Program-made: the position numbers and the translations under genes | Part shown: piece by piece, positions 3,220 to 18,618 of the stretch | How positions within the stretch are numbered: position 1 is the stretch's first letter | Layout of the letters: each line of letters opens with the position of its first letter | From: Pseudonocardiales bacterium | GTDB taxonomy: Bacteria > Actinomycetota > Actinomycetes > Mycobacteriales > Pseudonocardiaceae | Direction: 5' to 3' | Length of the DNA: 64,000 bases | Assembly (NCBI GenBank): GCA_023252195.1 | Contig: JAHEXI010000005.1 | Location: forward strand, 151,999-215,998 | Notes under the pieces: generated by a model | Seen by the model: the letters and a program-made list of their open reading frames with translations, nothing else | The model's database searches: none | What the model was told of the DNA's origin: nothing

Positions 3220-5751
3220 GTGGGCTACAGCCTCGGGGTGGACCTCGGCACAACGTTCGTCGCGGCCGCGATCGCCTCTGCCACCAGGGTTGAGATGTTC
3301 ACGCTGGGTGATCGCTCGGTGGTGACCCCGGCGACCGTGTACCTGCGGGAGGACGGCTCGCTGGTCACTGGGGAGGCCGCCAGCCTGCGCGCGGTGAGTA
3401 GCCCGGATCGAGTCAGCCGTGAGTTCAAGCGTCGGCTGGGCAACCCGACGCCGGTGATGCTCGGCGGTCAGCCGCACACCGTCACCGCACTGCTTGGCAC
3501 CCTCCTGGGGGACGTCGTGCAGAAGGTCATCGAAACCGAAGGTGAGCCACCCGATCGCATCGTGCTGACCCACCCGGCCAATTGGGGCCCATTTCGCCGT
3601 GCGCTGTTTGAGGAGGTTCCCCAGCACGCGGGGCTGGAGAACCCGTCGATGGTGACCGAACCCGAAGCGGCCGCCGCACACTACGCTGCGTCTCGGCTGC
3701 TGGTCGATGGCCAGACAGTGGCGGTGTACGACTTGGGCGGCGGCACCTTCGATGCCACGGTCCTGCGCAAACTCCCCACCGGCGTCGAGATCCTGGGCAC
3801 CCCGGAGGGCGTCGAACGGCTCGGCGGCGTCGACTTCGATGAAGCGATCCTGTCCCATGTCGACTACGCGGCAGACGGGGCGCTCAGCGAGCTGGACATG
3901 CGCGACCCCCAGAACATCGTCGCGCTCGCCCGGCTGCGGCAGGACTGCATCCTGGCCAAGGAGGCTCTCTCGGTGGACACCGAGACGGTCCTCCCGGTCC
4001 TACTCCCCGGCCGGCACTTCGACGTGCGCATCACTCGGTCGGACTTCGAGGACATGGTGCGAGCCCCCATCGAGTCCACCATCGGAGCACTCTCGCGAAC
4101 CCTTCAGTCAGCTCAGGTGCAACCCACCGACCTCAGCGCGGTGCTGCTGGTAGGCGGTTCCTCGCGCATTCCGTTGGTCGCCCGGATGGTGTCGGCCGAG
4201 CTGGGACGCCCCACGGTAGTGGATACCCATCCCAAATACGCGGTCGCGCTCGGTGCCGCCACGCTGGCCGCCGAGGCGGCCCCGGCCCCGATGCGGACGG
4301 CGGACACAGTCTTCGGAACCCGGCATCAACAACGAGATGACCAGAAACAAGATGGCCAGACGCCGATGTCGTCGAATGGTCTGGTCATGGCGATCCCGGC
4401 GCAGCGCACACCACACCGCGAGGCGACGGCCATCCCCGCCCACAGCCCGCTCGAGGTCGGCGCAACGCGCCCAGATACGAGGCCCGTCAGGATCCCGGTT
4501 CCGGCGGCGCATCCGCGACTCGCGCAACCTTCTCCACCACTCAGCACCCCGCTATCGGACAACCGTGCGGCTGGATCGGGGGGCGGGCCGACCCAGCCCC
4601 GTACGGGAATCGCGCCGGAAACCACCGCCCTCACCTGGATCTCTCCCGTCATCCACTCCGGCCGCTCGCTGCTGGCCGCTGTCACCGGCGTTGGACGCCG
4701 GGGATGGGTCCTGATCGCTATCGTGGGGCTCGTGCTGGCCGGGACGATCGCGCTCGTCTTGGCCGTGGTCGCTAACCAATCATCGTCAGACTCAACCCTC
4801 CCCGAGCCCGCTCCCATCGCGGAGCCGAACGGCGGACCGGAAGTCCCGATACCCTCTGTCGGTGCCACCATCCAGGTGGGGAAGACTCCAGGCTTCGTCG
4901 CGGTCTCCCCGAACGGTCGGCACGCCTACATCGCCAATCGGGACATTCAGGTGATCACCGTTCTGGATACTGCGGTCGACAAGGTGACCGCGACGATCCC
5001 CATCCCAGCGGGCCCACCCCAGTTCCTCGCTTTCGCACCGAACGGTCGCACGCTTTACGTCACCATCTACAACGAGCAGCGGACAATACATGTAATCGAC
5101 GTGATCGACACCACGTCGAACACCGTGGTCGCAACGATCTCGCAACCCGCGCGCCCGTTCCTCCCAGCGGTTGCCCGGGACGGGAAGTTGCTCTACGTTC
5201 CGAACCACGACATTGCGTCCGTGTCGGTGGTCTCCACCGCCGACAATATGGTCGTCGCCCAGATCAAGGTCCCCCCCAACCCGCATTGGGTGGCGTTCTC
5301 CCGCGACGGCAGCCGCGCCTACACAGCCAACCATGAGTCCAACGTGGTCTCGGTGATCGACACTGCCACCCGCACAGTCGTTGCGACCATCCCAGTCGGG
5401 ACCAGCCCACATAGTATCGCCGTACACCCCAACCGGCCCCTGGTCGCTAACGTGAATTACGACGCCAGTTCCGTGTCGGTGATTGACACCAACACTCTCA
5501 AGGTCGTTGCGACCATCCCGGTCGGGAAGAACCCCCGGGACATCGTCTGGGCTCCGGATGGACGGTTCGCCTACGTGGTGAATGAGGGCAGCAATAGCGT
5601 CTCCGTGATTGACGCCGGCACCAACCATGTCACTGCGACCATTCCCACCGGGGCCAGCCCGAGCAGTATCGCGGTGCTGCCCAGCGGCATGGAGGCCTAT
5701 GTGGCCAACCTCGACACTGGAACAGTGACCGTCCTGGAGCTCGCTGACTGA
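3220..5751 (+). CDS. Hsp70-like ATPase fused through one membrane helix to a YVTN beta-propeller
   Basis: 843 residues. The N-terminal ~350 residues are an Hsp70/actin-type nucleotide-binding domain: phosphate-1 motif GVDLGTTFVA, phosphate-2 motif VYDLGGGTFDATV, adenosine motif LLVGGSSRIPLV. The Hsp70 substrate-binding domain is absent. A proline-rich linker (about 350-490) leads to a single transmembrane helix (about 492-517). The rest (about 547-843) consists of roughly seven YVTN/NHL-like repeats, each with a core like VSVIDTATRTVVATIPVG, enough for a complete seven-bladed propeller. Topology would place the ATPase inside and the propeller outside. Start GTG 3220 has the SD sequence GGGGAGG. 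Ligand and partner are unknown; the adjacent sensor operon is suggestive. Confidence 0.88.
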   Translation: MGYSLGVDLGTTFVAAAIASATRVEMFTLGDRSVVTPATVYLREDGSLVTGEAASLRAVSSPDRVSREFKRRLGNPTPVMLGGQPHTVTALLGTLLGDVVQKVIETEGEPPDRIVLTHPANWGPFRRALFEEVPQHAGLENPSMVTEPEAAAAHYAASRLLVDGQTVAVYDLGGGTFDATVLRKLPTGVEILGTPEGVERLGGVDFDEAILSHVDYAADGALSELDMRDPQNIVALARLRQDCILAKEALSVDTETVLPVLLPGRHFDVRITRSDFEDMVRAPIESTIGALSRTLQSAQVQPTDLSAVLLVGGSSRIPLVARMVSAELGRPTVVDTHPKYAVALGAATLAAEAAPAPMRTADTVFGTRHQQRDDQKQDGQTPMSSNGLVMAIPAQRTPHREATAIPAHSPLEVGATRPDTRPVRIPVPAAHPRLAQPSPPLSTPLSDNRAAGSGGGPTQPRTGIAPETTALTWISPVIHSGRSLLAAVTGVGRRGWVLIAIVGLVLAGTIALVLAVVANQSSSDSTLPEPAPIAEPNGGPEVPIPSVGATIQVGKTPGFVAVSPNGRHAYIANRDIQVITVLDTAVDKVTATIPIPAGPPQFLAFAPNGRTLYVTIYNEQRTIHVIDVIDTTSNTVVATISQPARPFLPAVARDGKLLYVPNHDIASVSVVSTADNMVVAQIKVPPNPHWVAFSRDGSRAYTANHESNVVSVIDTATRTVVATIPVGTSPHSIAVHPNRPLVANVNYDASSVSVIDTNTLKVVATIPVGKNPRDIVWAPDGRFAYVVNEGSNSVSVIDAGTNHVTATIPTGASPSSIAVLPSGMEAYVANLDTGTVTVLELAD

Positions 5752-6166: not shown

Positions 6167-7453
6167 TCAGCCCACCACCGCCGGTGATGGCCGGTCGCGA
6201 GACCCGCGGGCCATGACGGCTCGGCGTGCGCGACCCGCTGCGGCAGCGACCAGCCGCTCGAACGGACCCTGTCCCAGCCAGCGCTGCCAGAAGAACCCGA
6301 AGGCGAGCGCACCGACGACCAACAGGACGTACATCGTGCCGGGCGCGTGCTGAAGCACCCCGGTCGCCAGCACCAGTATGTGCCCGCTGTAGAGGGTCAG
6401 CGTCATCGCTCCTGCGGCGGCCACCGGCCGCAGGAGACGAGAGATGAGCGGCACCCGCGATAGCAGCAATGCGGCACCGAGTACCGCCATCGCCGAGCCA
6501 AGCGTATGGACCATGTCGACGGGTGTAATGGAGTGCGGCGCGGGCAGCGCGAGGTACCACCACGACCAGGTTTGTTCGGGATCCCACAGCAGGGCGTTGC
6601 GGGTCACCGGGCCAGCACTCGACGGATCCATGCCCTGCAGGTGCCGGAGCCCGCCCAGCGGGAAGAGCAGGACCGCGGACACGATACGCGCGGTGAGTGC
6701 GAGGCCGAGGCCGCCGCCGAGCAACCAGGTGGCGACCCGGCGCGAGGACAGATCCAACCTGCCCATGGCGAGACCGGCGCACAGGTAGGCGAGGTAGGCC
6801 AGCACGGGGTAGGGGCCGGTGACGAGCAGGCCGACGATGAGCCCGGACGGGTCGTCGACAAGGGTGTCGAAGGTCGCGTTGTCCGATCCTCGGAAGGAGG
6901 GACCGTCTGCGTCGACCACGGCCAGGATCACCACGGGAGCCACTGCGATCAAGGAGGCAGCGGCCAGGGCCAAGGTGCGCGGGCGCAGTCCGAGCAACGG
7001 GATTGCGATCAGGAAGAGCACAGCGTAGTAGGGGAGGATCACTTCGATCTCGCTGGCGTCGTTGGCGTAGCCGAGCAATAGGCCGATCGCCCCGATCAGC
7101 AACGCCCGCACCGCGATGCCGGCGGTGGCTGCGGTGCGGGCCCGGCCCTCGACCACGCGCTGCCCACCGCTGAGGAACGCCAGGCTTACCCCCGCGACCA
7201 GGACGAAAGTGGTCGCGGACCGTCCCTCCGCGAGCACTGTCGCGAGCGTGGGTGTGCCGTGGCGGTCGAAGGTGGCGAAGACGTGCACCGCCATCATGCC
7301 GATCAGCGCGATCCCTCGCGCTACGTCCACCCCGATCACCCGCCCGGGGCGAACGGACGGCGCCGCAGCGCCCCCGACGGTCCCCCCGACGCGGCCGGCC
7401 ACGGGCGTCCGGCCGGGAACTGCCGGTAACGAGCTGGCGCCCGTGTCCCACAT
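6167..7453 (-). CDS. Membrane protein of the DUF1624/DUF418 (HGSNAT-like acyltransferase) type
   Basis: 428 residues with about ten membrane helices. The first helix region carries RVIGVDVARGIALIGMMAVHV, typical of the heparan-alpha-glucosaminide N-acetyltransferase catalytic family, followed by a GRSATTFVLVAGVSLAF segment. Such proteins move acyl groups across membranes in characterised members, but many bacterial ones are uncharacterised. SD GGGAG lies 5 nt before ATG 7453. It follows the SbnB-type gene by 63 bp on the same strand, so it is probably the last gene of the Dap/peptide operon. It could acylate or help export the product, an inference from position only. Confidence 0.75.
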   Translation of the reverse strand: MWDTGASSLPAVPGRTPVAGRVGGTVGGAAAPSVRPGRVIGVDVARGIALIGMMAVHVFATFDRHGTPTLATVLAEGRSATTFVLVAGVSLAFLSGGQRVVEGRARTAATAGIAVRALLIGAIGLLLGYANDASEIEVILPYYAVLFLIAIPLLGLRPRTLALAAASLIAVAPVVILAVVDADGPSFRGSDNATFDTLVDDPSGLIVGLLVTGPYPVLAYLAYLCAGLAMGRLDLSSRRVATWLLGGGLGLALTARIVSAVLLFPLGGLRHLQGMDPSSAGPVTRNALLWDPEQTWSWWYLALPAPHSITPVDMVHTLGSAMAVLGAALLLSRVPLISRLLRPVAAAGAMTLTLYSGHILVLATGVLQHAPGTMYVLLVVGALAFGFFWQRWLGQGPFERLVAAAAGRARRAVMARGSRDRPSPAVVG

Positions 7454-7516: not shown

Positions 7517-8587
7517 TCATCCGTACCGGCGCAGCTCGTGGAAGAAGTCATCGACGACGTGCAATTCGCCGGATCGGACGACCTCGTCGTAGACGTACTT
7601 GCCCACGGCGAGGTCGAGAACTCCGAGGCCGAAGGGCGAAAACACCAGCGGCCGGTCCGCCGGGACCGACACCCGCCCGGCCATCACGTCGTCCAAGGTG
7701 CCGAGCAGGAAATCCCGGTTGCCCGTGAGCTGTTCGGCCAGATGCGGCGAGGTGTTGGCCTTCATACAGTGCTCGATATCGTCGACGATGTTGGTCGAGG
7801 CCAGCACGATCTCCGGCGCGAGGTCGCGCAGCGACACGTGCAGCACCAACGGATTGTGTGCAAACCACGACAGGTCGCTGACATGCGGCGCAGCGGCGAC
7901 GGTGGCGAAGACCACCAGGTCGCTGGAGCGGATCAACTGCTCGGCGCTGTCGTGCACGGTGATCGCGCTGGTGGTGCCCGAGTGCTCCAGGTAATCGCGG
8001 AAGCCGGTCGCACTGTCGGTGGACAGATCATGCACGCCGATCTCGTCGAACGACCAGCCGGTGCCGGTCAGGAAAGTGTGGATATAACGGGCGATCAGGC
8101 CCACCCCGAAGAACCCGACGCGCGTCGGGCGCCGCCGGTCGCGACTGAGCCAGTCAGCCGCCAACGCCGCCGACGCGGCCGTTCTAGTGGCGCTGATGAT
8201 CGAGCATTCCAGGCAGGCGAACGGGTAGCCGGTGTCGTGGTCGTTGAGGATCAGCACGGCCGACGCCCTTGGGATGCCGGCTGCCACGTTCTCCGGGAAA
8301 CTGGAGATCCACTTCAGACCATCCACCCGCACCTGCCCGCCGATCGAGGCGGGCAGCGCGATGATCCGCGAGGACGGGCGGTCGGGGAAACGCAGGAAGT
8401 ACGATGGCGGGTTCACCGAATCACCGGCGCCGTGCAGCCGGTAGGTGCCCTCGACCAACTCCACGATGTGGTTCTCGCGGCCCTGCAGCGTGTGCTGGAC
8501 CTGAGCACCGGAGATCACCGCGAACGGTGGCACGGTGAGCGGCTCGGACATGGCGGACTCCGCGGTGGTGGAACGGACGGTGGTCAT
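7517..8587 (-). CDS. sbnB-like: SbnB-type dehydrogenase for 2,3-diaminopropionate synthesis
   Basis: 356 residues of the ornithine cyclodeaminase/mu-crystallin fold, with the NAD-binding motif GFFGVGLIARYI in the middle and the substrate region ALPASIGG upstream. In staphyloferrin B synthesis SbnB oxidatively splits N-(1-amino-1-carboxyl-2-ethyl)-glutamate into L-Dap and 2-oxoglutarate. The matching SbnA homologue is at 16036-17025 in the same operon, which makes this role much more likely than cyclodeaminase. Start ATG 8587 overlaps the TGA of the upstream hydroxylase (ATGA), indicating coupling; a longer frame to 8734 lies inside that gene and does not resemble the family. Confidence 0.87.
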   Translation of the reverse strand: MTTVRSTTAESAMSEPLTVPPFAVISGAQVQHTLQGRENHIVELVEGTYRLHGAGDSVNPPSYFLRFPDRPSSRIIALPASIGGQVRVDGLKWISSFPENVAAGIPRASAVLILNDHDTGYPFACLECSIISATRTAASAALAADWLSRDRRRPTRVGFFGVGLIARYIHTFLTGTGWSFDEIGVHDLSTDSATGFRDYLEHSGTTSAITVHDSAEQLIRSSDLVVFATVAAAPHVSDLSWFAHNPLVLHVSLRDLAPEIVLASTNIVDDIEHCMKANTSPHLAEQLTGNRDFLLGTLDDVMAGRVSVPADRPLVFSPFGLGVLDLAVGKYVYDEVVRSGELHVVDDFFHELRRYG

Positions 8588-9591
8588 CGGGAAGTCACCT
8601 CGACGGGCGGCGAACACTCGGCCAGGCGGACCGCGTCGGCCATCGCGACGAGCACTTCGCGCGGTCCCTCGAAGGGTTCCCTGCTGTGCGCGGTGCGGAC
8701 GTTGTCGACGAGCATCAGGTCGCCGGCCTGCCACGGCTCGCGTGCGGTGTTGGTCTCATAGACCCTGTTGAGCAGCGCCACGACGTCCTCGCCGATCGGG
8801 TCGCCGTTGCCGAAGTGGGTGTTGAACGGCAGCCCGTCGGCGCCGTATACGTCCACCAGGAACTCGCGCACCTCGGGATCGATCGTCCACTCGTTGAGGA
8901 ATGCGATCTGGTTGAACCAGCAGCGCTGGCCGGTGACCGGGTGACGCACCACGGCGCTGCGAAGTTGCCTGGTGCGCAGTCCACCGTCGGGTTGCCACTG
9001 GAACTCGATCGCGTTGGCGCGGCAATAGCTCTCGACGGTGGCACGGTCCTCGGTGCCGAACGCCTCGGCGAAGGAAGCCCCGATCTCGTCGTTGTAGTTG
9101 CGGGTGAGCAACCAGCCCTCCCGCTCGAACCGCTCGACCAACTCAGTGGGCAGCGCGTCGAGCACGGTCGGCGAGTCGGCGACCGCGGTGGCCCCGCCGT
9201 CGGTGGGTGCGCTCAGGCACGCGAACAGCATCAGGCCGGGAAACTCAAGTGTGTAGCTCAGCTCGTGGTGCATGCACATCGGCTGGTTCGACGGCCACTT
9301 CGATGAGGAGTACACGCCCGCGGAGTAGGTCTGCCGGGACGCGAAGGCCTCCGTCTCGGTCATCAGACCGGTGGCCAGCCGCGCAAAGACCGCACCGACC
9401 TCGGTCGAGTCGCACAGCCCGAGGCCGCGGACCAGGACCGAACCGTGCTCGGCGACGGCGGTGCGCAGCGCGTCCCGGTGCTCGGCCGCCCAGCTTGGCG
9501 CGTCGCCGGGGGCCTCGGCCCGCAGCATCGGGGGTTTGCCGGGTTGCAGCTCCACGTTGAGCAGTGACGCTGGGAATGAGAACGACATCAT
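8584..9591 (-). CDS. TauD/SyrP-family Fe(II)/2-oxoglutarate dioxygenase (amino-acid hydroxylase)
   Basis: 335 residues. The iron-binding HxE pair is H108 and E110 in MCMHHELSY, the distal His is H302 in RTAHSREPF, and the 2-oxoglutarate Arg is probably R311. The surrounding pattern (KWPSNQPMCMHHE, then LFACLSAPTDGGAT) matches SyrP-type enzymes, which beta-hydroxylate amino acids held on a carrier domain. Here the likely substrate is the amino acid carried by the adjacent A-T protein, perhaps Dap or Asp. SD-like GGAAACC precedes ATG 9591. The gene is 44 bp downstream of the NRPS and overlaps the SbnB gene, so it belongs to the pathway. Confidence 0.87.
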   Translation of the reverse strand: MMSFSFPASLLNVELQPGKPPMLRAEAPGDAPSWAAEHRDALRTAVAEHGSVLVRGLGLCDSTEVGAVFARLATGLMTETEAFASRQTYSAGVYSSSKWPSNQPMCMHHELSYTLEFPGLMLFACLSAPTDGGATAVADSPTVLDALPTELVERFEREGWLLTRNYNDEIGASFAEAFGTEDRATVESYCRANAIEFQWQPDGGLRTRQLRSAVVRHPVTGQRCWFNQIAFLNEWTIDPEVREFLVDVYGADGLPFNTHFGNGDPIGEDVVALLNRVYETNTAREPWQAGDLMLVDNVRTAHSREPFEGPREVLVAMADAVRLAECSPPVEVTSR

Positions 9592-9635
9592 GGTTTCCTT
9601 TCAGTGCCTACTTAATGCCGATTAAAGAAAGCCGA

Positions 9636-12188
9636 TTAAGCAGAAACCAACAATGCGGCGGGCCGCTTTGCCGCCGGCGCGGTGTCCACGGAGCGCCGCT
9701 CGGACCTGCCATCGACCAGTCCGGCCAGATCGACGAGGACCGGGTGACGGATGAGATCCTTGAGCGACACCGCACGGTCCAGGGTGATCGCCAGCTTCAC
9801 TGCCGACAGCGACGTGCCGCCCCGGTCGAAGAAGTGGTCCCACCGGCCGATCTGGTCCTGCGGGATGCCGAGCACCTTCGCCCAGGCAACCGCCAGCCGC
9901 TGCTCGGTCGGCGTACTCGGCGCGTCGTGTTGCTCAGCGACGTCACTGCCCGCGAGCTCTCCGGCGAGTGCCGTCAGCGTCTTCCTATCGATCTTGCTGT
10001 TGGCGGTCAGCGGCAGACTTTCCCGCCAATGGAAGGTCGGCGGGATCATGTACCCGGGCAGCGACTCACCCAGCCGGCCGCGCAGGACGTCGACCTCGAG
10101 TGGTCGCTGGCCGGAGTAGAAAGCCACCAGGTGTTTGCTCCGGTCGGCCCGCTCGGCGACCACTACCGCACCGTCGCGGACACCGGGCACCCGTAACAGG
10201 GTGTTTTCGATCTCGCCGATCTCGATTCGGAAGCCAGCGATCTTGACCTGGGTATCCCGGCGGCCGAGGAACTCCAGCTTGCCCTCGGGCTGCCAGCGGC
10301 CGTAGTCGCCGCCCCGGTAGAGCCGCTGGCCCGCGCGGTGCGGATCGGTCAGATAGGCCGACCGAGTGCGCTCGGGGTCGTTGACGTACCCGCGACCGAC
10401 ACAGACCCCGGAGAAGACGATCACACCGGGGGCACCGAGCGGTACCGGTGACAGGTTCTCATCGACGACGTAGACATGCACGTTGTTGACGGGCGGGCCG
10501 AGCGGGACCCGTTCGGAGTCCGGCACCCGGTCCATGACCTCGTGGTTGGTGTCGTCCGAGGTCTCGGTCAGCCCGTACGCGTTGACCAGCTTGATCTCGG
10601 GCTCAACCGCGAACCAGCGCTGTGTGAGCTCCTTCTTCAACGCCTCGCCGGTGGCCGACACGCACCGCAGGTCCGGCAGCTCGCGGGGGTGCTGCTCCAG
10701 GTAGGACAGGACGACCTCGAGATACGACGGCACGACCTGGAGCACGGCGACCCGGCCGTCGACGATCTTGTCGACGAACCGCTGGACGTCCAGGATCACC
10801 TCCTGCTCGACCAGCAGGGTCCGCCCACCGACCAGGAGCGCGGAAACCAGTTGCCACAGCGAGATGTCGAAGCACTGGGGTGCGGTCTGGGCGACCACCT
10901 GCGCTGCGCCGTTCTCCGGGCCGATCCCTAGGTCGTCGATCTTGGCGTAGAGGTGGTTGAGCATGCCTGCGTGCTCGCACATCGCGCCCTTGGGTGCACC
11001 GGTGGAGCCGGAGGTGAAGTAGATGTACGCGAGCTGGTCCGCCGCGACGCCTACGCCGAGATCACCGTCGGCGTAGTCCTCCTCGTAGGCCGTGTCGACG
11101 AAGAGCCGCTGGACTCCGGGCAGCGAGTCGAGGGCCTTGTCGAGGCTGGTGGTGCTGCCGGGTTCGGTCAGCACGAGCCCGCACTCGGCACGCGAGAGCG
11201 TGGTCGCGATGCGATCGGCCGGGAAATGCGGCTCGATGGGCAGGTACACGCCACCGGACTTGAAGATCGCGAGGACGGCGGCCATCCAGTCCAGGTTGCG
11301 CTCGGTCACCACCGCGACGACACCCTCGCGACGCAGCCCCCGCGCCAACAGGGCTCGTCCCAGCCGGTTGGCACGGACGTTGAGCTCCCGGTAGCTCCAC
11401 TGCCGGTCGCCGTGCACGGCCGCGACGGCGTCCGGGTGTGCCGCCACCCGCTGCTCGAACAGCTCGTGGAACCGGCGGTCTGGCAGCTCCCGGGGCGGCC
11501 CGGCGAGCCCTTCAAGCTGGAAATGACGTTCCTCGGCGGACAACAGACTCTGCCGCCCGTGCTCGGCATCCGGATCGGCGACGATCAGCGCGAGCGCGGT
11601 GAGGTGATAGCCGGCGATCCTGGCGGCACAGTCCGCGTCGAGCACGTCGCTCCGGTAGCGCAGCCGCAGCACGAGTTGGCCGCCGCGTTGCGAGATTCCC
11701 ACCCACAGCACGGTGTCCTCGGCGAGATCGCCGCCGTTGCCGGTCGGATCGAACACCGTCTCGAACGACGGTCCAGTCAGGCCCAGCTCGTGTCTGAGAT
11801 CATCGACCGGAAAGCCCTTGTGCGACAGCAGCTCTGACTCGACTCGATGGGTGTCCAGCAGCAACGTCCGCCACGAGTCGGGTTCGGTTGTCAGCCGGCA
11901 GGGCAACGACCGGCCGCCATCGGCGGTGACGTAGCCGGTCGCTACCTCGAGCTCGCCGGACAGCGCGGCGAGCACCTTGGCGTGCGCGGCCAGCAGCACC
12001 GAGCGCAGTGGCACCGCCAGCTCGTCGGCCAGCCGGCGCAACGCCGCCACGAGGTCATCGGGGATCGTCGCCTCATGCTTCACGACGCCCGTCACCGGAG
12101 CGCAGGTCCACCGCGGGATCGCGCTGAAGCCGCCAGCGATCAGCACACCGCGCCAAAACTCCCGCCCAGCATCCACTGGCATTTCCAT
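9636..12188 (-). CDS. NRPS protein with half condensation-like domain, adenylation and carrier domains
   Basis: 850 residues. Residues ~1-225 resemble only the C-terminal lobe of a condensation domain and contain no HHxxxDG. The adenylation domain has all motifs: A3 YFTSGSTGAPKG, A4 FDISLW, A5 NAYGLTETSDD, A7 YRGGDYGRW, A8 GRRDTQVKIAGFRIEIGEIE, A10 LTANSKIDRK. The carrier domain follows, with Ser793 in FDRGGTSL. There is no thioesterase. My reading of the specificity positions is D-I-W-S-S-T-A-D-D-K; two Asp at 330/331 could contact an amino side chain. Start ATG 12188 is set by SD GGAGGT 9-10 nt upstream. It probably supplies the activated amino acid to the Pls-like partner. Confidence 0.88.
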   Translation of the reverse strand: MEMPVDAGREFWRGVLIAGGFSAIPRWTCAPVTGVVKHEATIPDDLVAALRRLADELAVPLRSVLLAAHAKVLAALSGELEVATGYVTADGGRSLPCRLTTEPDSWRTLLLDTHRVESELLSHKGFPVDDLRHELGLTGPSFETVFDPTGNGGDLAEDTVLWVGISQRGGQLVLRLRYRSDVLDADCAARIAGYHLTALALIVADPDAEHGRQSLLSAEERHFQLEGLAGPPRELPDRRFHELFEQRVAAHPDAVAAVHGDRQWSYRELNVRANRLGRALLARGLRREGVVAVVTERNLDWMAAVLAIFKSGGVYLPIEPHFPADRIATTLSRAECGLVLTEPGSTTSLDKALDSLPGVQRLFVDTAYEEDYADGDLGVGVAADQLAYIYFTSGSTGAPKGAMCEHAGMLNHLYAKIDDLGIGPENGAAQVVAQTAPQCFDISLWQLVSALLVGGRTLLVEQEVILDVQRFVDKIVDGRVAVLQVVPSYLEVVLSYLEQHPRELPDLRCVSATGEALKKELTQRWFAVEPEIKLVNAYGLTETSDDTNHEVMDRVPDSERVPLGPPVNNVHVYVVDENLSPVPLGAPGVIVFSGVCVGRGYVNDPERTRSAYLTDPHRAGQRLYRGGDYGRWQPEGKLEFLGRRDTQVKIAGFRIEIGEIENTLLRVPGVRDGAVVVAERADRSKHLVAFYSGQRPLEVDVLRGRLGESLPGYMIPPTFHWRESLPLTANSKIDRKTLTALAGELAGSDVAEQHDAPSTPTEQRLAVAWAKVLGIPQDQIGRWDHFFDRGGTSLSAVKLAITLDRAVSLKDLIRHPVLVDLAGLVDGRSERRSVDTAPAAKRPAALLVSA

Positions 12189-12222
12189 CGGATCTTTACC
12201 TCCACTCACCGTTGCCACGGTG

Positions 12223-15200
12223 CTACTCCCCGCTGACCACGACGGCGCCACGGATGTCGCAGCTGTTTCGCCAAACCCCTGCAGGATCATTTCCAATCTC
12301 CCTGGCCGGATTTCCACCCCACCGCGCGCGCTGTGGGATCTCCTCGCCCTTCATGAGAAAAGAGTCGGGCGCAAGGACCGCGGCCTCGCCCATCGTCACG
12401 CCGTAGAGGACGAAGGCGCCGATTCCGAGGGTGCAGCCGGCACCGATCATGATGCGGTCGGACTTAAAGGTGTAGTCCTCCTGCGAGTGGCACTGGATGG
12501 TCGAGTTGGCGTTGAGGGTGACGTTGTCGCCGATCGTCACCAGCGTCTTCTCCGGCATCGTGCAGCCGTCGTCGAACAGCCGCCTCCCGCCCCGTACGCC
12601 CAGCAGCCGCCAGATCGCGTTCTTGAACGGGGTGCCGTTGAAGGCCTGGAGAAGGGATGCCATCGCAGGCACCTTCCAGTACCGCTCATGCCACCAGAAG
12701 TACGGCTCGTAGATCGAGCAGAACTGAGGGCTCAGGGCCTGAAATACGGTGACGGCACGTTCGACCAGCACGAAATAGACGACGCTGAATAGGAGAATAA
12801 GGAAGTAGCCCAGCGCGATCACCGACGCACCGAACGAGGCGTAGAGGTCCGCGGCGCCCAAGGCGAGCAGGGTGATCCCGAAGAGATAAATCCACCGCAC
12901 CAGCAGGTACAACCCCATGGTGACGGCATTGTGCCTGTTCTTGGCGGCGAGGCGGCGGCGCAGCTCGTCCCCGCTCCTCAGGTGGTCGAACCTGTTGTCA
13001 CGCTCGACCGATCGCGGAATCTCGAAGCTGGGCGAGCCCAGAAGTCCGACACCCTCCCTGACTTCCCCGTCGACCGGAACCATGACCTTCGTCGCGAGGA
13101 GGCAGTTGTCACCCGTCCTGCCCTGCGAGGGGTAGGCAATCTTGTTCCCGAGGAAGTTGTGTCGCCCTATCGACGCTCGGGACACCCGGAAGGATGTGCT
13201 CGAGAAATCGGCATTGATGATCGACAGCCCGTCAGCGACCACCGTTCCGCTGCCGACCGAGCTCAGGTACGGGGTCTCGTGCTTCAGATCCAAGCCGAAG
13301 TTCGACCCAGTCTGCTCCACCCGGAAAAGGCCGTACCCGAGGCAGCGCAAATAGTGGACGATGTAGGAGCTGTCACCGAAGAGATACGTGAAGAATTTCA
13401 TATTGGTCGTGCGCGCGATCACCCGGTGGACCCAGTAGTGGAAGCCATACAAGCAATAGACCTTGTCCGGCTTGATGGCGAGGTTAAGCATGCGAGGAAC
13501 AGTGACCACGACGAGCAAGCCCACGAGCACATAGCCGAAGAAGAGCACGAAAGAGGCGGCCAGGGCGTTGCGGTAGAACGTCCAGTTCGTGAAAGCCAGC
13601 GCCCCTGAGCCCAGGAGCGCAGTAAACTGCGGGACCTCAGCGAGCAGCATGCCAAGGCCGCCGACCGCCAGCGGCAGGCCCAGAACCAGCAGGGTCAGCA
13701 GCTGCACGATGGTGTAGACGGCCCTTCTCAGGGTTCCGCAGGCGGTGGGCTCGACGGCCCGATAGTCCACCTCGGTCCGCTGCGCTGGGGACCCGTGCCA
13801 GCGCTCGCCGTCGGGCACAGCCTGCCCGGCGTGCAGAGACGAGGTATGGCCGAGTTGGGCCCCGTCGCCCAGCGAGGTCCCGATGTCGAGCACGGTCGCC
13901 TCGCCGACGAACACGTCCTTCCCGAGGGTGACTGCGCCCGTCTCGATCAGGCCGGCGTGGGCTCGGTAGCAAGTGAAGGACGAGTCCTTACGGATGACCG
14001 TGCCGTCGCCGATGGTGAGCAGGTCGGTGCACACGGGCACGGTCCGGGAAAAGACCGCGACGCCCCGTCCGACTTTCGCGCCCAACGCCCTCAGATAGAG
14101 CACGTAGAGCGGTGAACCGCCGAACCGGACCAGCGGGTTCGACCGGACCAGCGTCTTGACGATCCAAAAACGGACGTACGCCAGACTCCAGATGCGGATC
14201 TGCTGTGGCTTCCACCGACCGATGAGCATCCACTTCGCCAGGATCGGAAGGGTGCATACGCCGAGGAAGCTTGCGGCGCCGAATAGCACTGTCCGCAGGT
14301 AGCTGCCGATCAAACCTGAGCCAGCGGAGATCCACTCGGAGCCCCGGGCGGTAAGGAGTGCGGCGAGGTAACAATACCCGAGGAAGATCAGGAGCTGCAG
14401 CGTTGCGCAGAGGACGTACCGCGGGCTGCCGGTCGGGCCCTGTCGGTGCCACCCACCGCACGCAGTGTGGGTCGCCACCTCGGTCGACGGCGGGACTGAA
14501 GGCTCGATAGGGGTGGGCGCGGGCTCCGCGAACGCTGCCGCCAGACCTCTGATCGTTGGGTGCTGGTAGATGTCTTTCATCGACACCGTGGGCAGGTCCG
14601 CCTGCTTTCTGACCCGGGCGCAGAATCGGGCCATCACCATTGAGTCAGCACCGAGGTCATCGAAGAAGTGGCTATCGACCGAGACCCGCTCGATGCCCAC
14701 GATGTCAGCCAGCACCTCGGCGAGTTTGTTCTCGATGGGGGTGGGCGCGGGCTCCGTGAGCGCCTGAGCCATCTCGGAAACCTGCAGCGGCACCGACTCG
14801 ATCTCGGTCAGGTCGATCAGCGCACGGTGGGGGTCCGTGACGGTGGCTTCGGTCGGCCCGTAGACGTTGAGGAATCGGCGGCCGGGTTTGTGCCAACGAG
14901 TGATCAGGTCCTGCGGGCAGGGCTTCCCGGAGACCAGCAGGAACCGCAGGTTGGGCAGATCGTCCTCGATGGTGGCCAGCAGAGCCGGAACGCAACACAT
15001 CGCCGTGACGCGGCGCTCGCTGAGGAACTCGTGCAGGTCCTGACCCAGCAGGCTCGCGCCGGACGGTTTCGGGACCAGTGTCGCGCCCGCTGCCCATGGC
15101 ACCCAGATCTCCTGGACGGAGCAGTCGAACGCGATCGTCAGACCCTGGTAGACCCGGTCGCTGGGACGGATGTCGTAGGTCTCGGCGGCGACCCGGACGA

Positions 15201-15855
15201 AGTCGCAGATGCTCGGGTGATCGATCGCCACGCCCTCGGGCCGGTCGGTCGAGCCGGAGGTGTAGCTGATGTAAGCCAGCTGATCTTTGTGGCTACCGCG
15301 CTCCACGGGCAGCAACCGGCACTCGTTCATCTCGGCGATCAGGGGGGCCGCATCGTCGATGAAGAGCAGCTCGATGTCTGAGGCGGTCAGCGGCTTGATG
15401 TCCTCGACCCGCTCGCGCAGGTCGGAACGGGTCAGCACCATCTTCACCTGGGCGTCCGCAACGACGTAGGCCAGCCGGTCGGCGGCAGAATCCACATCCA
15501 GTGGCACGTACGCCCCGCCGATCTTCAGCACCGCCAGCATGCCGAGGTAGGCATCGACGGGCCGGTCGAACAGCAGCGCGATCCGATCACCCGCGCTGGC
15601 GCCGCACAGACGCAGATAGCGGGCCAGTTGATTGGTACGCGCGTCGAGCTCGTCGTAGGTCAGCCGCAGGTCGTGGGAGTCGACCGCGAGCTGACCGGGC
15701 CGGCCGTATTCGCTGATCCAGTCGCAACGCTCCTCGAACACGAGATCCAGGCGCTCACCGCGGCGAGTCCGCCGACTCTGAGCCTGCTCCGCGACCAACA
15801 CAAGCTCCGGGAGCTCGGCGGCGGGTTGCTCGAAAGGAAGCAACGTGGCGGTCAT
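12223..15855 (-). CDS. pls-like: Pls/PosA-type membrane peptide polymerase with broken adenylation domain
   Basis: 1210 residues; S. albulus epsilon-polylysine synthetase has 1319. Order: partial adenylation domain (~40-366), carrier domain (~373-440, Ser405 in LGADSM), then six membrane helices in three pairs (~480-545, 712-790, 977-1034) separating three soluble domains with hexapeptide-like repeats. This tail is diagnostic of Pls, where it forms isopeptide bonds. The A domain is abnormal: A3 reads SGSTDRPEG instead of SGSTGxPKG. After A5 (NVYGPTEATVT) the sequence jumps to the A8 remnant (LIDLTEIES) and then to the carrier. A6, A7, A9 and A10, including the catalytic Lys, are missing. SD AAGGAG precedes ATG 15855. 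It probably depends on the separate A-T protein, or is decaying. Confidence 0.88.
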   Translation of the reverse strand: MTATLLPFEQPAAELPELVLVAEQAQSRRTRRGERLDLVFEERCDWISEYGRPGQLAVDSHDLRLTYDELDARTNQLARYLRLCGASAGDRIALLFDRPVDAYLGMLAVLKIGGAYVPLDVDSAADRLAYVVADAQVKMVLTRSDLRERVEDIKPLTASDIELLFIDDAAPLIAEMNECRLLPVERGSHKDQLAYISYTSGSTDRPEGVAIDHPSICDFVRVAAETYDIRPSDRVYQGLTIAFDCSVQEIWVPWAAGATLVPKPSGASLLGQDLHEFLSERRVTAMCCVPALLATIEDDLPNLRFLLVSGKPCPQDLITRWHKPGRRFLNVYGPTEATVTDPHRALIDLTEIESVPLQVSEMAQALTEPAPTPIENKLAEVLADIVGIERVSVDSHFFDDLGADSMVMARFCARVRKQADLPTVSMKDIYQHPTIRGLAAAFAEPAPTPIEPSVPPSTEVATHTACGGWHRQGPTGSPRYVLCATLQLLIFLGYCYLAALLTARGSEWISAGSGLIGSYLRTVLFGAASFLGVCTLPILAKWMLIGRWKPQQIRIWSLAYVRFWIVKTLVRSNPLVRFGGSPLYVLYLRALGAKVGRGVAVFSRTVPVCTDLLTIGDGTVIRKDSSFTCYRAHAGLIETGAVTLGKDVFVGEATVLDIGTSLGDGAQLGHTSSLHAGQAVPDGERWHGSPAQRTEVDYRAVEPTACGTLRRAVYTIVQLLTLLVLGLPLAVGGLGMLLAEVPQFTALLGSGALAFTNWTFYRNALAASFVLFFGYVLVGLLVVVTVPRMLNLAIKPDKVYCLYGFHYWVHRVIARTTNMKFFTYLFGDSSYIVHYLRCLGYGLFRVEQTGSNFGLDLKHETPYLSSVGSGTVVADGLSIINADFSSTSFRVSRASIGRHNFLGNKIAYPSQGRTGDNCLLATKVMVPVDGEVREGVGLLGSPSFEIPRSVERDNRFDHLRSGDELRRRLAAKNRHNAVTMGLYLLVRWIYLFGITLLALGAADLYASFGASVIALGYFLILLFSVVYFVLVERAVTVFQALSPQFCSIYEPYFWWHERYWKVPAMASLLQAFNGTPFKNAIWRLLGVRGGRRLFDDGCTMPEKTLVTIGDNVTLNANSTIQCHSQEDYTFKSDRIMIGAGCTLGIGAFVLYGVTMGEAAVLAPDSFLMKGEEIPQRARWGGNPAREIGNDPAGVWRNSCDIRGAVVVSGE
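14503..14756. repeat. 26-bp direct repeats flanking the carrier domain of the Pls-like gene
   Basis: The copies lie at 14503-14528 and 14731-14756 and differ at one of 26 positions. Both are in frame and encode EPAPTPIE. They bracket the 76-residue carrier domain exactly, 228 bp apart. Recombination between them would remove or duplicate the carrier domain in frame. Confidence 0.85.
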
Positions 15856-15981
15856 GATGTCTCCTTGGGCCCACCAAGGGTCGTTGTCCTTGGTCGTGTT
15901 CTGGTGGAAAGCATGTCGACGGAGTCCCCGACCGGCGATGGTGCGGGCCCCCGGGGCCGCAGAGCTGGCCCCCGAATCGAA

Positions 15982-15997
15982 GTAGGGCTAGCCCTAC
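15982..15997. promoter_or_regulatory. Perfect 16-bp palindrome between sbnA-like and pls-like genes
   Basis: GTAGGGCTAGCCCTAC is a perfect palindrome in the 180 bp gap upstream of the Pls-like gene. It could be a dimeric operator or, as RNA, a 6-bp stem with a CTAG loop. No T-run follows on the minus strand, so a terminator is unlikely. It shares TAGG-like ends with DtxR/IdeR boxes but has different symmetry, so I do not assign it to that family. Confidence 0.4.
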
Positions 15998-16035
15998 CGG
16001 TTCGTGGGGGGTAGGCGGCGGGTCGCTGGTCTGGG

Positions 16036-17025
16036 TCAGGCCGCCCGGGAACCGGAGGTCAGCTCGTCGGAGCGGAGCACGTCCTCGCCGTAAAGGTCCT
16101 GTAGCCAGTTGGTTTGGTAGATGGTGTCGAGGTAGCGCTCACCGAGGTCCGGGGCGATGGCCACCGCGGTGAGTTCCCGCGTGTCATGCTCGGCCAGCCA
16201 GTCCATCGCGCCGCTGATCACGGTGCCGGTGGAGCCGCCGAACAAAAATCCGCTTCGGGCCAGGCGATGGCAGGCCCGGATGGTGTCCGACTCCTCGACC
16301 CATACCACCTCGTCGACATAGGACTCGTCGAGGAGCTCGGGGCGGACGCTTGTGCCCAGGCCGGGAATCATCCGGCGCCCCGGTGCACCCCCGAAGGTCA
16401 CCGAGCCGACGCTGTCTACTGCGACGACCCGCACCGGCCGGTGCCACTCCCGGAAGTAGCGTGCGCAGCCCATCAGCGTCCCGGTGGTGCCGGCCCCGAC
16501 GAACAGCACGTCCAGCCGCGGGAACTCGCCAGCGATCGCCGGCGCTGTCGTGCGGTAGTGGGCCTTCCAACTGTTCGGGTTGGTGTACTGGTTAAGCCAC
16601 ACGTACCGATCGTCGGTGGCGCACAGCGCGCGGACGTAGTCGAGGCGTGCGCCGAGGAAGCCGCCGATGTCAGCCGGTTCGACGATGATGTGCACCTGGC
16701 TGCCCAACGCCTCCATCAGCCGCCTGGACGCCAGGTTGCAGCGGGAGTCGGTCACGCACACGAACCGGTAGCCCTTGCTCGCCGCGATCATGCTCAATGC
16801 CACGCCCAGGTTCCCGGACGAGGACTCGACCAGCACCGAAACTCCCGGCGTCAGGAGTCCGTCCCGCTCGGCGGCCTCGACCATCTCGGTTGCGGCCTTC
16901 AGCTTGATCGAGCCGGCGAAGTTGAAACCCTCGCACTTCAGGAACAGCGAGCGCCCGAAGATCGACCGAAGGTCGACGTAGAGCTTCTCCTCGTTGAAGT
17001 CCTGCGGAACCGATATCACCGACAC
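16036..17025 (-). CDS. sbnA-like: SbnA-type synthase for 2,3-diaminopropionate synthesis
   Basis: 329 residues of the cysteine-synthase/beta-substituted-alanine synthase fold, close to SbnA in length. The PLP Lys lies in FAGSIKLKAA, the substrate-carboxylate loop in VESSSGNLGVA, and the phosphate-binding loop in VGAGTTGTLMG. In the SbnA reaction O-phospho-L-serine and glutamate are joined to N-(1-amino-1-carboxyl-2-ethyl)-glutamate, which SbnB then cleaves to L-Dap. The SbnB homologue is five genes away in the same operon. GTG 17025 has GAGGT 5-6 nt upstream. It is the first gene of the operon. Plain cysteine synthase is the alternative, less likely given the partner. Confidence 0.87.
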   Translation of the reverse strand: MSVISVPQDFNEEKLYVDLRSIFGRSLFLKCEGFNFAGSIKLKAATEMVEAAERDGLLTPGVSVLVESSSGNLGVALSMIAASKGYRFVCVTDSRCNLASRRLMEALGSQVHIIVEPADIGGFLGARLDYVRALCATDDRYVWLNQYTNPNSWKAHYRTTAPAIAGEFPRLDVLFVGAGTTGTLMGCARYFREWHRPVRVVAVDSVGSVTFGGAPGRRMIPGLGTSVRPELLDESYVDEVVWVEESDTIRACHRLARSGFLFGGSTGTVISGAMDWLAEHDTRELTAVAIAPDLGERYLDTIYQTNWLQDLYGEDVLRSDELTSGSRAA

Positions 17026-17219: not shown

Positions 17220-18618
17220 TCAGCCGAAAAGCCTGGCTTGCGCCTCAACCCGCAGACCGGGCGGCGCTTCGATCACCTTGGTGCCATCGCCGTCATGCGC
17301 GAGGGATAGCTGGCCGCCGGGGAACGGGATTCCGTGGACCTCGATGCGGTGCAACCCCCCTCGGTAGCACGGGATTCAGCGACACAGTCCCGGCCGGCAC
17401 GTCGGGTTGCAGACCCAGGCATAGCGCCACGATCGCCAGCGGCACCCCAGCCGCCCACGCCTGCGGCCAGCACGCGGTGGGATAGGGCACTGGGAAGTCG
17501 CTCGGCTCGCGATGATGCCCACCGAAGAGTTCGGGCAGTCGATCGTCGAAGATCGCCAACGCGTCGAGCAGGTCGCCTACCAGGCGCATCGCCACGTCGT
17601 CGAGCCCGTAGCGCCGCAGGCCCTCGCAAGCGATGACGGTGTCGTGCGGCCACACCGAACCCACGTGATAGGAGATCGGGTTGTAGCCGGCCATCTCCGC
17701 CGAGAGCGTGCGCAGCCCCCAACCGCTGGCCATGGCCGGGCTCCCCAGGTGGGCAGCGACCTGGTCGGCCTCCTGTTGTGAGGGCACGCCGCACCACAGC
17801 AAGTGAGCCATATCGGGGATGCTGAGCGCGTCAAGATCGGTCAGTGAGCGCAGGCAACCGCGGGCCAAACGCTCCGGCAGGCTGTGCACCACCACGTCCG
17901 GGCGGCCGGTGGTCTCGGTCCGCGGCTGGACCGCGAGCCGTTCCGCACTGCCGGCACCACGCAGTGCGCTCACCTCGATCCGCAGGATCCACGGCTGATC
18001 CCGGCTCAGCGGCACGGTCCAGTGCGCTTCGCTGCGCTCGACGACGTCGGGGGGCGGATCCAGCTGCACCGATGTCGCGCGCGGAGTTCCCGCGGCCTCG
18101 AAACGCAGCTGTCCGGGGGAATGATGCACCGGAATACCGGACGACTGCGCACTGGGATCACCCGCGAGACGGCGAAGCTGGAAGATGTCGGCGAAATCGG
18201 AATCCAGCTGGATCGACAGGCGCACCTGAACTGGATCAGGAGTCCAGCAGCGCAAGGTCAGCGTCTCCACCATGCCTGCGGGCGACAGCTCGCGCAGCCG
18301 CTCGCACTCCACCGGCGCATCCGGTAGCCGGTTGCTCAGCGTGGCGTAGCAGCGGAACCGGGCCACCGCCGGACTGATCAAACCGGATCCCAGATGCCGC
18401 AATGGTTCGGAGTCCAGCCGCACCTGCAGCCGGGACAGATGCCGGGTGTCGTCGGTGATCAAGCCGAAGGGACCCGGCCCGATGTCGCCGCGCTCGTCGG
18501 AGATCGCGAAGGTCAGACCGGCGATGACCGTGATGGTGCCTGGCCCGGCAAGTACTCCCTGCGGCGCGATACCGTCGAAGTCCGGGCCGTCCATGTCCGG
18601 CGCTGCACCGGCCATCAT
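17220..18618 (-). pseudogene. Decayed glycogen-debranching (amylo-alpha-1,6-glucosidase) gene
   Basis: The N-terminal ~200 residues match the glycogen-debranching N-terminal domain (GLITDDTRHLSRLQV). The frame then jumps from RSLTDLDAL to SIPDMAHLLWCGV, a point close to the C-terminus of the (alpha/alpha)6 barrel, so roughly 300 residues of the catalytic domain are missing. The remaining end (YNPISYHVGSVWPHD, LPELFGG, PYPTACWPQAWAA) is well kept. A second lesion is a one-base expansion in a six-C run at 17355-17360: reading across it restores the expected tail LHRIEVHGIPFPGG with a stop at 17220-17222. Without correction the frame ends at 17293. Almost certainly inactive. Confidence 0.8.

Follow-up and report, generated by a model that had tools for sequence, protein, structure and literature searches.

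To our knowledge, the polyamino-acid synthetases described so far are self-contained enzymes, in which a single protein selects, activates and polymerizes its amino acid. The poly-Dap synthetase (PDAPs; Dap, L-2,3-diaminopropionate) of Streptomyces albulus PD-1 adenylates and polymerizes in one protein, contains a carrier followed by transmembrane segments around three tandem domains, and uses Dap made by a cysteine-synthase-like and an ornithine-cyclodeaminase-like enzyme, with no mention of an oxygenase (PMC4668381; this and the other papers cited were available in excerpts, to which statements about them refer). The synthetases of epsilon-polylysine (Pls) and delta-polyornithine (PosA) likewise possess an active adenylation (A) domain in cis, and PosA loses its activity when residue E221 is changed (PMC10522769). 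In other systems, a missing or inactive A domain is made up for by a separate adenylation-carrier (A-T) module, for which an N-terminal extension is required in the case of ramoplanin (PMC8949500). A related division of tasks appears to exist in a five-gene operon of a Pseudonocardiales bacterium (GenBank assembly GCA_023252195.1, contig JAHEXI010000005.1), located at positions 7517 to 17025 of the 64,000-nucleotide stretch analyzed here, hereafter the window. Because its Pls/PosA-type polymerase fails to provide an active A domain in cis, the system is, as judged from sequence, not a complete Pls synthetase but a split variant. No report of a Pls-type synthetase without an A domain, or of this gene arrangement, was identified in the open-access literature, a scope outside which most subscription papers and bioRxiv fall.

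We consider it probable that the operon encodes a non-ribosomal assembly line, divided between proteins, that makes a Dap oligomer or polymer. Its five minus-strand genes run head to tail from 17025 to 7517 in the order SbnA, Pls/PosA-type polymerase, A-T protein, TauD-family oxygenase and SbnB, and all five reading frames are open. About 35 bases separate the polymerase stop from the likely A-T start, and the likely SbnB start (ATG 8587) overlaps the TauD stop by a few bases. In the congeneric genome G008, the order of the last four genes is the same, and the contig breaks off within SbnA. The genes and their parts are as follows (C* denotes a half condensation domain, T a carrier domain, pLDDT the predicted local distance difference test and dN/dS the ratio of nonsynonymous to synonymous substitution rates):

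16036-17025 (-), SbnA homologue P0005, step 1 of Dap synthesis; NCBIfam TIGR03945, 389.6 bits (cut-off 349.95)
12223-15855 (-), Pls/PosA-type membrane polymerase P0004 with remnant A domain; TIGR02353, 797 bits; six hydrophobic helices, three beta-helix domains
14836-15702 (-), remnant A core of P0004, residues 52-340, with A3 altered and A7, A8 and A10 missing; dN/dS 0.46 against G008
14740-14835 (-), linker with putative deletion scar DLTEIESV, which matches the post-A8 segment in intact relatives
14533-14727 (-), polymerase carrier (T) domain, motif DDLGADSM; PF00550, 43.5 bits; serine conserved in all 56 clusters
12304-14409 (-), polymerase region with three transmembrane pairs and three left-handed beta-helix domains; TIGR02353 match at residues 483-1184; AlphaFold2 mean pLDDT 85; Foldseek
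9636-12188 (-), C*-A-T protein P0003; frame open from 12317, likely start ATG 12188
11463-12182 (-), C*, C-terminal lobe of a condensation domain; AlphaFold2 mean pLDDT 86.7; Foldseek
9972-11459 (-), intact A domain, code DIWQSTADDK; motifs and code from alignments
9714-9902 (-), carrier (T) domain of the A-T protein, motif GGTS; PF00550, 31.8 bits; site detected by regular expression in 56 of 58 relatives
8584-9591 (-), TauD/SyrP-type Fe/2-oxoglutarate oxygenase P0002; PF02668 (TauD), 152 bits; H108, E110, H302 and R311 invariant in 18 aligned sequences
7517-8587 (-), SbnB homologue P0001, step 2 of Dap synthesis; TIGR03944, 423.8 bits (cut-off 326.9)

The earlier note on this DNA had assigned all five genes from motifs, and profile matches confirm its assignments. 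SbnA and SbnB both pass the equivalog cut-offs of their families, and the pyridoxal phosphate (PLP)-lysine motif of SbnA was detected by regular expression in 56 of 58 relatives. The free-standing A-T synthetase matches PF00501 (252 bits) and PF13193 (28 bits) in addition to its carrier profile; its N-terminal half condensation domain has to be added to the description in the note. The SyrP-type oxygenase retains the iron and 2-oxoglutarate residues of its family, and the polymerase indeed appears to lack a working A domain, though most of the A core remains.

P0004 shares the terminal family of Pls and PosA (TIGR02353, 797.3 bits, cut-off 423.1) and their architecture (PMC10522769), as well as the carrier and three tandem domains with transmembrane segments described for PDAPs. 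A hydropathy scan yielded six membrane helices arranged as three pairs, plus two weaker peaks that overlap within the third beta-helix, and the AlphaFold2 model of residues 366-1210 consists of the carrier followed by three repeats of a helix pair and a left-handed beta-helix, for which the Foldseek matches shown were mainly hexapeptide acyltransferases. In contrast to the described synthetases, the A core of P0004 covers only positions 8-327 of the 384 of PF00501, its A3 motif reads TSGSTDRPEG, A7, A8 and the A10 lysine are gone, and the chain passes from the A core into the carrier. The remnant pocket reads FDCSVQE, compared to mostly FDFSVEE in intact relatives, with Gln at the position equivalent to E221 of PosA; for the poly-Dap synthetase, Phe has been reported next to the first Asp (PMC10522769). 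From these features, the A domain of P0004 appears to be dead, and as the scar DLTEIESV matches the post-A8 segment of intact relatives, an internal deletion would be the simplest account of its loss. Between the window and G008, dN/dS is 0.46 for the polymerase gene, 0.26 for the A-T protein, 0.28 for TauD and 0.16 for SbnB, and reaches 1.86 for the first 39 residues of the polymerase and 1.24 for the linker, neither of which is constrained. The dead A core (14836-15702, minus strand) is 87 percent identical to that of G008, compared to 80 percent for the polymerase region, with a low dS, and may have a structural or docking role.

Related loci were surveyed in 390 genomes of the family, searched with the polymerase region (C-terminal 708 residues); 136 contain a relative at E <= 1e-100, and 89 loci were annotated (80 fetched places, eight earlier regions and the window), an uneven sample chosen mostly by similarity to the window (G and L numbers denote genomes and loci). 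In 56 of the 89 loci, at least two of SbnB, TauD and A-T lie near the polymerase, and 51 contain all five genes. The A core of the polymerase is undetected in 36 of these 56 clusters, degenerate in 20 and intact in none; the 36 include one locus cut at a contig end (L081) and one (L125) whose carrier is preceded by 638 residues, which probably represent a decayed A domain. All 19 aligned degenerate polymerases (L069 was left out) differ from the intact form at A3 and A8 and have no A10 lysine, whereas this lysine is present in all 13 intact polymerases. The carrier serine is conserved in all 56 clusters, and SbnA and SbnB each occur beside 53. The other 33 loci comprise 13 in which A3, A5, A7, A8 and A10 are intact and the fetched region contains no gene of the four partners, and 20 in which the A core is undetected (14) or degenerate (6); 18 of these 20 lack A-T in the region, including three cut at a contig end (L071, L126 and L129).

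An intact Pls A domain with the same neighbours, which the earlier note had named as a sign that this copy is simply decaying, was thus sought in the 56 clusters and found in none; since the A core is always undetected or degenerate, local decay does not account for it. The proposed division of adenylation and polymerization between two proteins is therefore borne out by sequence, and the core idea of the note is right and stronger than it had claimed, with the product still a matter of inference. The rarity that it implied does not hold: all five genes were found together in 51 of the 89 loci and in 55 of the 80 that make up a second, named set. What sets the window copy apart is mainly that half of an A domain is still present.

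The named set was obtained by scanning a TauD alignment over 84,980 species, which gave at least 547 relatives, the best 80 of which were kept (16 repeat loci of the first set). Judging by record titles, these best 80 include 40 Streptomyces, 9 Pseudonocardia and 5 Kibdelosporangium, together with Kutzneria, Amycolatopsis, Lentzea, Actinomadura, Actinoplanes and Geodermatophilus. A Pls-type protein lies within the fetched stretch of 70 of them, four with frames cut at a contig end, and an A core was detected in 3 of the 70. When 394 genomes were drawn evenly from the class, the C* profile matched 27 of them at 1e-20, and 15 of these, the window included, exceed 150 bits. Cluster pieces also occur on contigs of metagenome-assembled genomes (L166, L184, L186, L196, L197, L199, L203 and L210) labelled Rokubacteria, Eisenbacteria, Proteobacteria, Verrucomicrobia, Acidobacteria and Ktedonobacteraceae, labels that may reflect transfer or misbinning.

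In a FastTree phylogeny of 137 polymerase regions, the 124 non-intact forms split from the 13 intact forms with a support of 0.999, and the A state changes about nine times, compared to a mean of 37 (minimum 33) over 200 shuffles. It follows that the partnership probably arose once and that the A domain was lost repeatedly, with the window and G008 as putative intermediates. A-domain loss can be traced stepwise across living genomes. Furthermore, the evolutionary distances of polymerase and A-T protein correlate at 0.82 over 50 clusters, the highest value of ten gene pairs (permutation maximum 0.18).

The 18 non-intact loci without A-T in the region belong to 16 genomes (G310 and G332 were checked in addition), 15 of which contain a C* match elsewhere, with two fragmentary matches in G302. 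Eight of nine control genomes with an intact polymerase (G002, G013, G024, G025, G135, G154, G256 and G307) have no C* match, nor do G009, G148 and G190, in which the polymerase was not motif-typed. Four genomes (G200, G313, G318 and G326) contain exactly one C* match and a polymerase without A core, adjacent A-T or discrete A protein; therefore, one A-T protein may serve two polymerases there, as far as sequence can tell. At L057, L060, L063, L086, L116 and L118, a polymerase without A core has no partner in the fetched region, and C* is found elsewhere in the genome.

The presumed partner, P0003, combines intact A motifs with a long N-terminal extension. In the structure model, its N-terminal 240 residues take the form of a condensation-domain C-terminal lobe, and all 50 Foldseek matches shown for C* are condensation-family domains or proteins containing one. 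Dapdiamide biosynthesis offers a comparable architecture in DdaD (C*-A-T-thioesterase), alongside the TauD-type epoxidase DdaC that acts on a carrier-bound Dap derivative. By description, that system resembles the cluster in its Dap pathway, its truncated condensation domain before A-T and its TauD enzyme, and differs from it in that no Pls-type polymerase is known there. Across the A-T proteins, 58 in number, no listed A motif is impaired except in two partial genes (L089 and L109), and the carrier site of L070 does not align. The ramoplanin and enduracidin systems likewise use a separate A-T protein with an N-terminal extension of about 300 residues to complement an inactive A domain, but the partner is a multimodular nonribosomal peptide synthetase (NRPS), and their extension, likened here by description, is said to have no known homology, in contrast to the half condensation domain of P0003 (PMC8949500). 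In capreomycin biosynthesis, the module CmnI lacks an A domain and is loaded with Dap in trans by CmnA-A1, but CmnI is a T-C protein with a canonical condensation-domain fold rather than a membrane polymerase, and its A domain comes from another NRPS module (PMC12400406).

From the gene content and the conserved features described above, we infer the following scheme. SbnA and SbnB would make L-Dap, which the C*-A-T protein would adenylate and hold on its own carrier; this protein, perhaps docked via its half condensation domain, would then charge the carrier of the Pls-type polymerase in trans. The TauD oxygenase would oxidize Dap bound to the carrier or incorporated in the chain, and the three beta-helix domains of the polymerase would join the units via their side-chain amines, as in Pls and the poly-Dap synthetase. 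The system probably works like Pls, with selection seemingly moved to a partner protein, which means that building block and chain-builder could evolve, or be swapped, separately. More tentatively, we hypothesize that the clusters represent a widespread class of membrane polymerases that lost adenylation once, are charged in trans by C*-A-T proteins, perhaps with one A-T for two polymerases in some genomes, and make poly- or oligo-Dap in an oxidized form (N-acyl-hemiaminal or dehydro), which would be a novel kind of polycationic isopeptide. As the cluster is present in many cultured Streptomyces and relatives, product, oxidation state and external charging are directly testable.

Several observations weigh against a Dap assembly line divided in this way. 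A7 (RTGD) is retained in 17 of the 19 aligned degenerate polymerases, so that some may be less dead than that of the window, and the A remnant of the window is constrained (dN/dS 0.46) where the linker is not, so that it may retain some role. G306 (two contigs), in which a degenerate polymerase lies beside TauD (L120), has no C* match at 1e-20, and the intact-polymerase genome G036 contains a weak one (39 percent). The A code of P0003, compared with the Dab code alone (Dab, 2,4-diaminobutyrate), departs from it at two pocket positions. The A-T protein bears its own carrier, on which Dap could stay, and no SyrC-like shuttle was recognized among the shared gene families listed. A sub-variant also exists that encodes a discrete A protein and carrier and lacks SbnA and SbnB. 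Finally, on chemical grounds, free beta-hydroxy-Dap would be an unstable hemiaminal.

The last point bears on the oxidation step. The iron and 2-oxoglutarate residues of TauD, an HxE...H site with an arginine, are invariant in the 18 aligned sequences (excluding L098, which has an in-frame stop, and L107, L119 and L122). HxE is present in all 63 TauD proteins checked; 56 fit the strict regular expression, four of the seven others show AHSR, and the distal His was not detected by script in L051, L087 and L101 of the 63. At L098:4521-5522 (minus strand), an in-frame stop interrupts the TauD stretch of an otherwise complete cluster, and one TGA was flagged at this place of the genome. The earlier note had suggested a hydroxylated product; given the hemiaminal nature of free beta-hydroxy-Dap, hydroxylation of an N-acylated unit to an N-acyl hemiaminal and desaturation to dehydro-Dap are real alternatives, and either product is as likely as hydroxy-Dap. 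That the oxygenase is specifically a desaturase, or acts after chain growth and leaves dehydro-Dap units, is possible if somewhat unlikely: the instability argument and an active-site triad that is generic for the family are in its favour, whereas SyrP, to which the enzyme was likened, is a hydroxylase. Such chemistry would be compatible with the split assembly line and alter one step of it.

A different use of the same proteins, which we regard as unlikely, is that A-T and TauD modify a residue on the A-T carrier only, and that the Pls-like protein takes it as acceptor or cap, its own carrier being charged by another A domain or never, to give a short peptide. An A-T protein with a tailoring enzyme is a classical route to a modified residue on a dedicated carrier, as for SyrB1/SyrB2 (PMC8949500), and both the intact carrier of the A-T protein and the existence of the sub-variant fit this route. 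The conserved carrier serine of the polymerase in 56 of 56 clusters speaks for charging of that carrier, however, and the families common to most clusters include no further A gene. Concerning the sub-variant itself, genes for a discrete AMP-binding protein and a small carrier are located close to Pls and TauD at L084, L101, L104, L106, L173, L178, L180 and L205. L084 is a full cluster despite this; in the stretches of the other seven, A-T, SbnA and SbnB were not found, and L205 adds a short open reading frame (ORF) weakly resembling the C-terminus of a PLP decarboxylase. L101, L104 and L106 had been considered as orphan polymerases using a distant A-T protein, an interpretation rejected as the discrete A protein and carrier are present there.

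The identity of the activated amino acid leaves room for a further alternative, likewise doubtful, in which the A-T protein activates another residue, for instance Dab or a diamine hydroxylated at the beta position, with Dap entering at some other point. The codes of the 58 A-T proteins are DIWQSTADDK (41), DIWQSTTDDK (14), DIWQCTTDDK (2) and one incomplete, and searches of the open-access literature with these strings returned no match. An aligned A domain of PvdL, which we take to be Dab-activating, reads DIWELTADD plus the usual K and is thus identical to DIWQSTADDK at eight of ten positions. The beta-OH-Dab signature DVWQMIGDDK shares Gln at the fourth position, but two Dap signatures are themselves 80 percent identical to Dab ones (PMC12283262), SbnA and SbnB each accompany 53 of the 56 clusters, and no Dab-synthesis gene was recognized by eye among the shared first-set families listed. 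The Dap-type substrate named in the earlier note is thereby upheld indirectly, through the Dap genes and the diamine-like code, and with SbnA and SbnB alongside A-T, Dap is our best guess for the amino acid activated by P0003. Simple decay of the A domain in an operon turning into a pseudogene, to which the truncation and the drifted A3 and pocket residues might point, is highly improbable and was rejected, given five open frames, the same truncated form in G008, four compared genes whose dN/dS values all stay below 0.5, and 36 clusters out of 56 in which no A core is detected.

Apart from the five genes, every family is shared by at most 14 of the 89 loci of the first set, and the flanking genes, namely a downstream membrane protein (6167-7453) and an upstream glycogen-debranching-like gene, were therefore rejected as cluster members. 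The latter (17293-18618, minus strand; GDE_N_bis and part of an MGH1-like domain) seems to be shortened internally. One extra family is common to 22 of the 80 named loci; its coordinates suggest an antisense frame within SbnB. A further PLP-dependent enzyme (L094:2023-3186, minus strand, and relatives; PF00291, 219 bits) lies by the cluster in 14 of the 89 loci, and seemingly the same family in 10 of the 80 named loci. In three named loci (L150, L161 and L206), a 4'-phosphopantetheinyl transferase was found near the cluster (L150:4509-5270, plus strand; PF01648, 50.7 bits). Stand-alone Pls genes are accompanied in a family of seven loci by an aspartokinase-like amino-acid kinase (L121:13029-14345, minus strand; PF00696, weak ACT match), which suggests that the monomer derives from aspartate, as Dab or Lys does. 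Elsewhere in the window, an ORF at 3220-5751 (plus strand) encodes an Hsp70/DnaK-like ATPase domain fused to a C-terminal YVTN-type beta-propeller, and an ORF judged by eye to resemble this fusion opens the contig of G008 beside its cluster (L022:1-1653).

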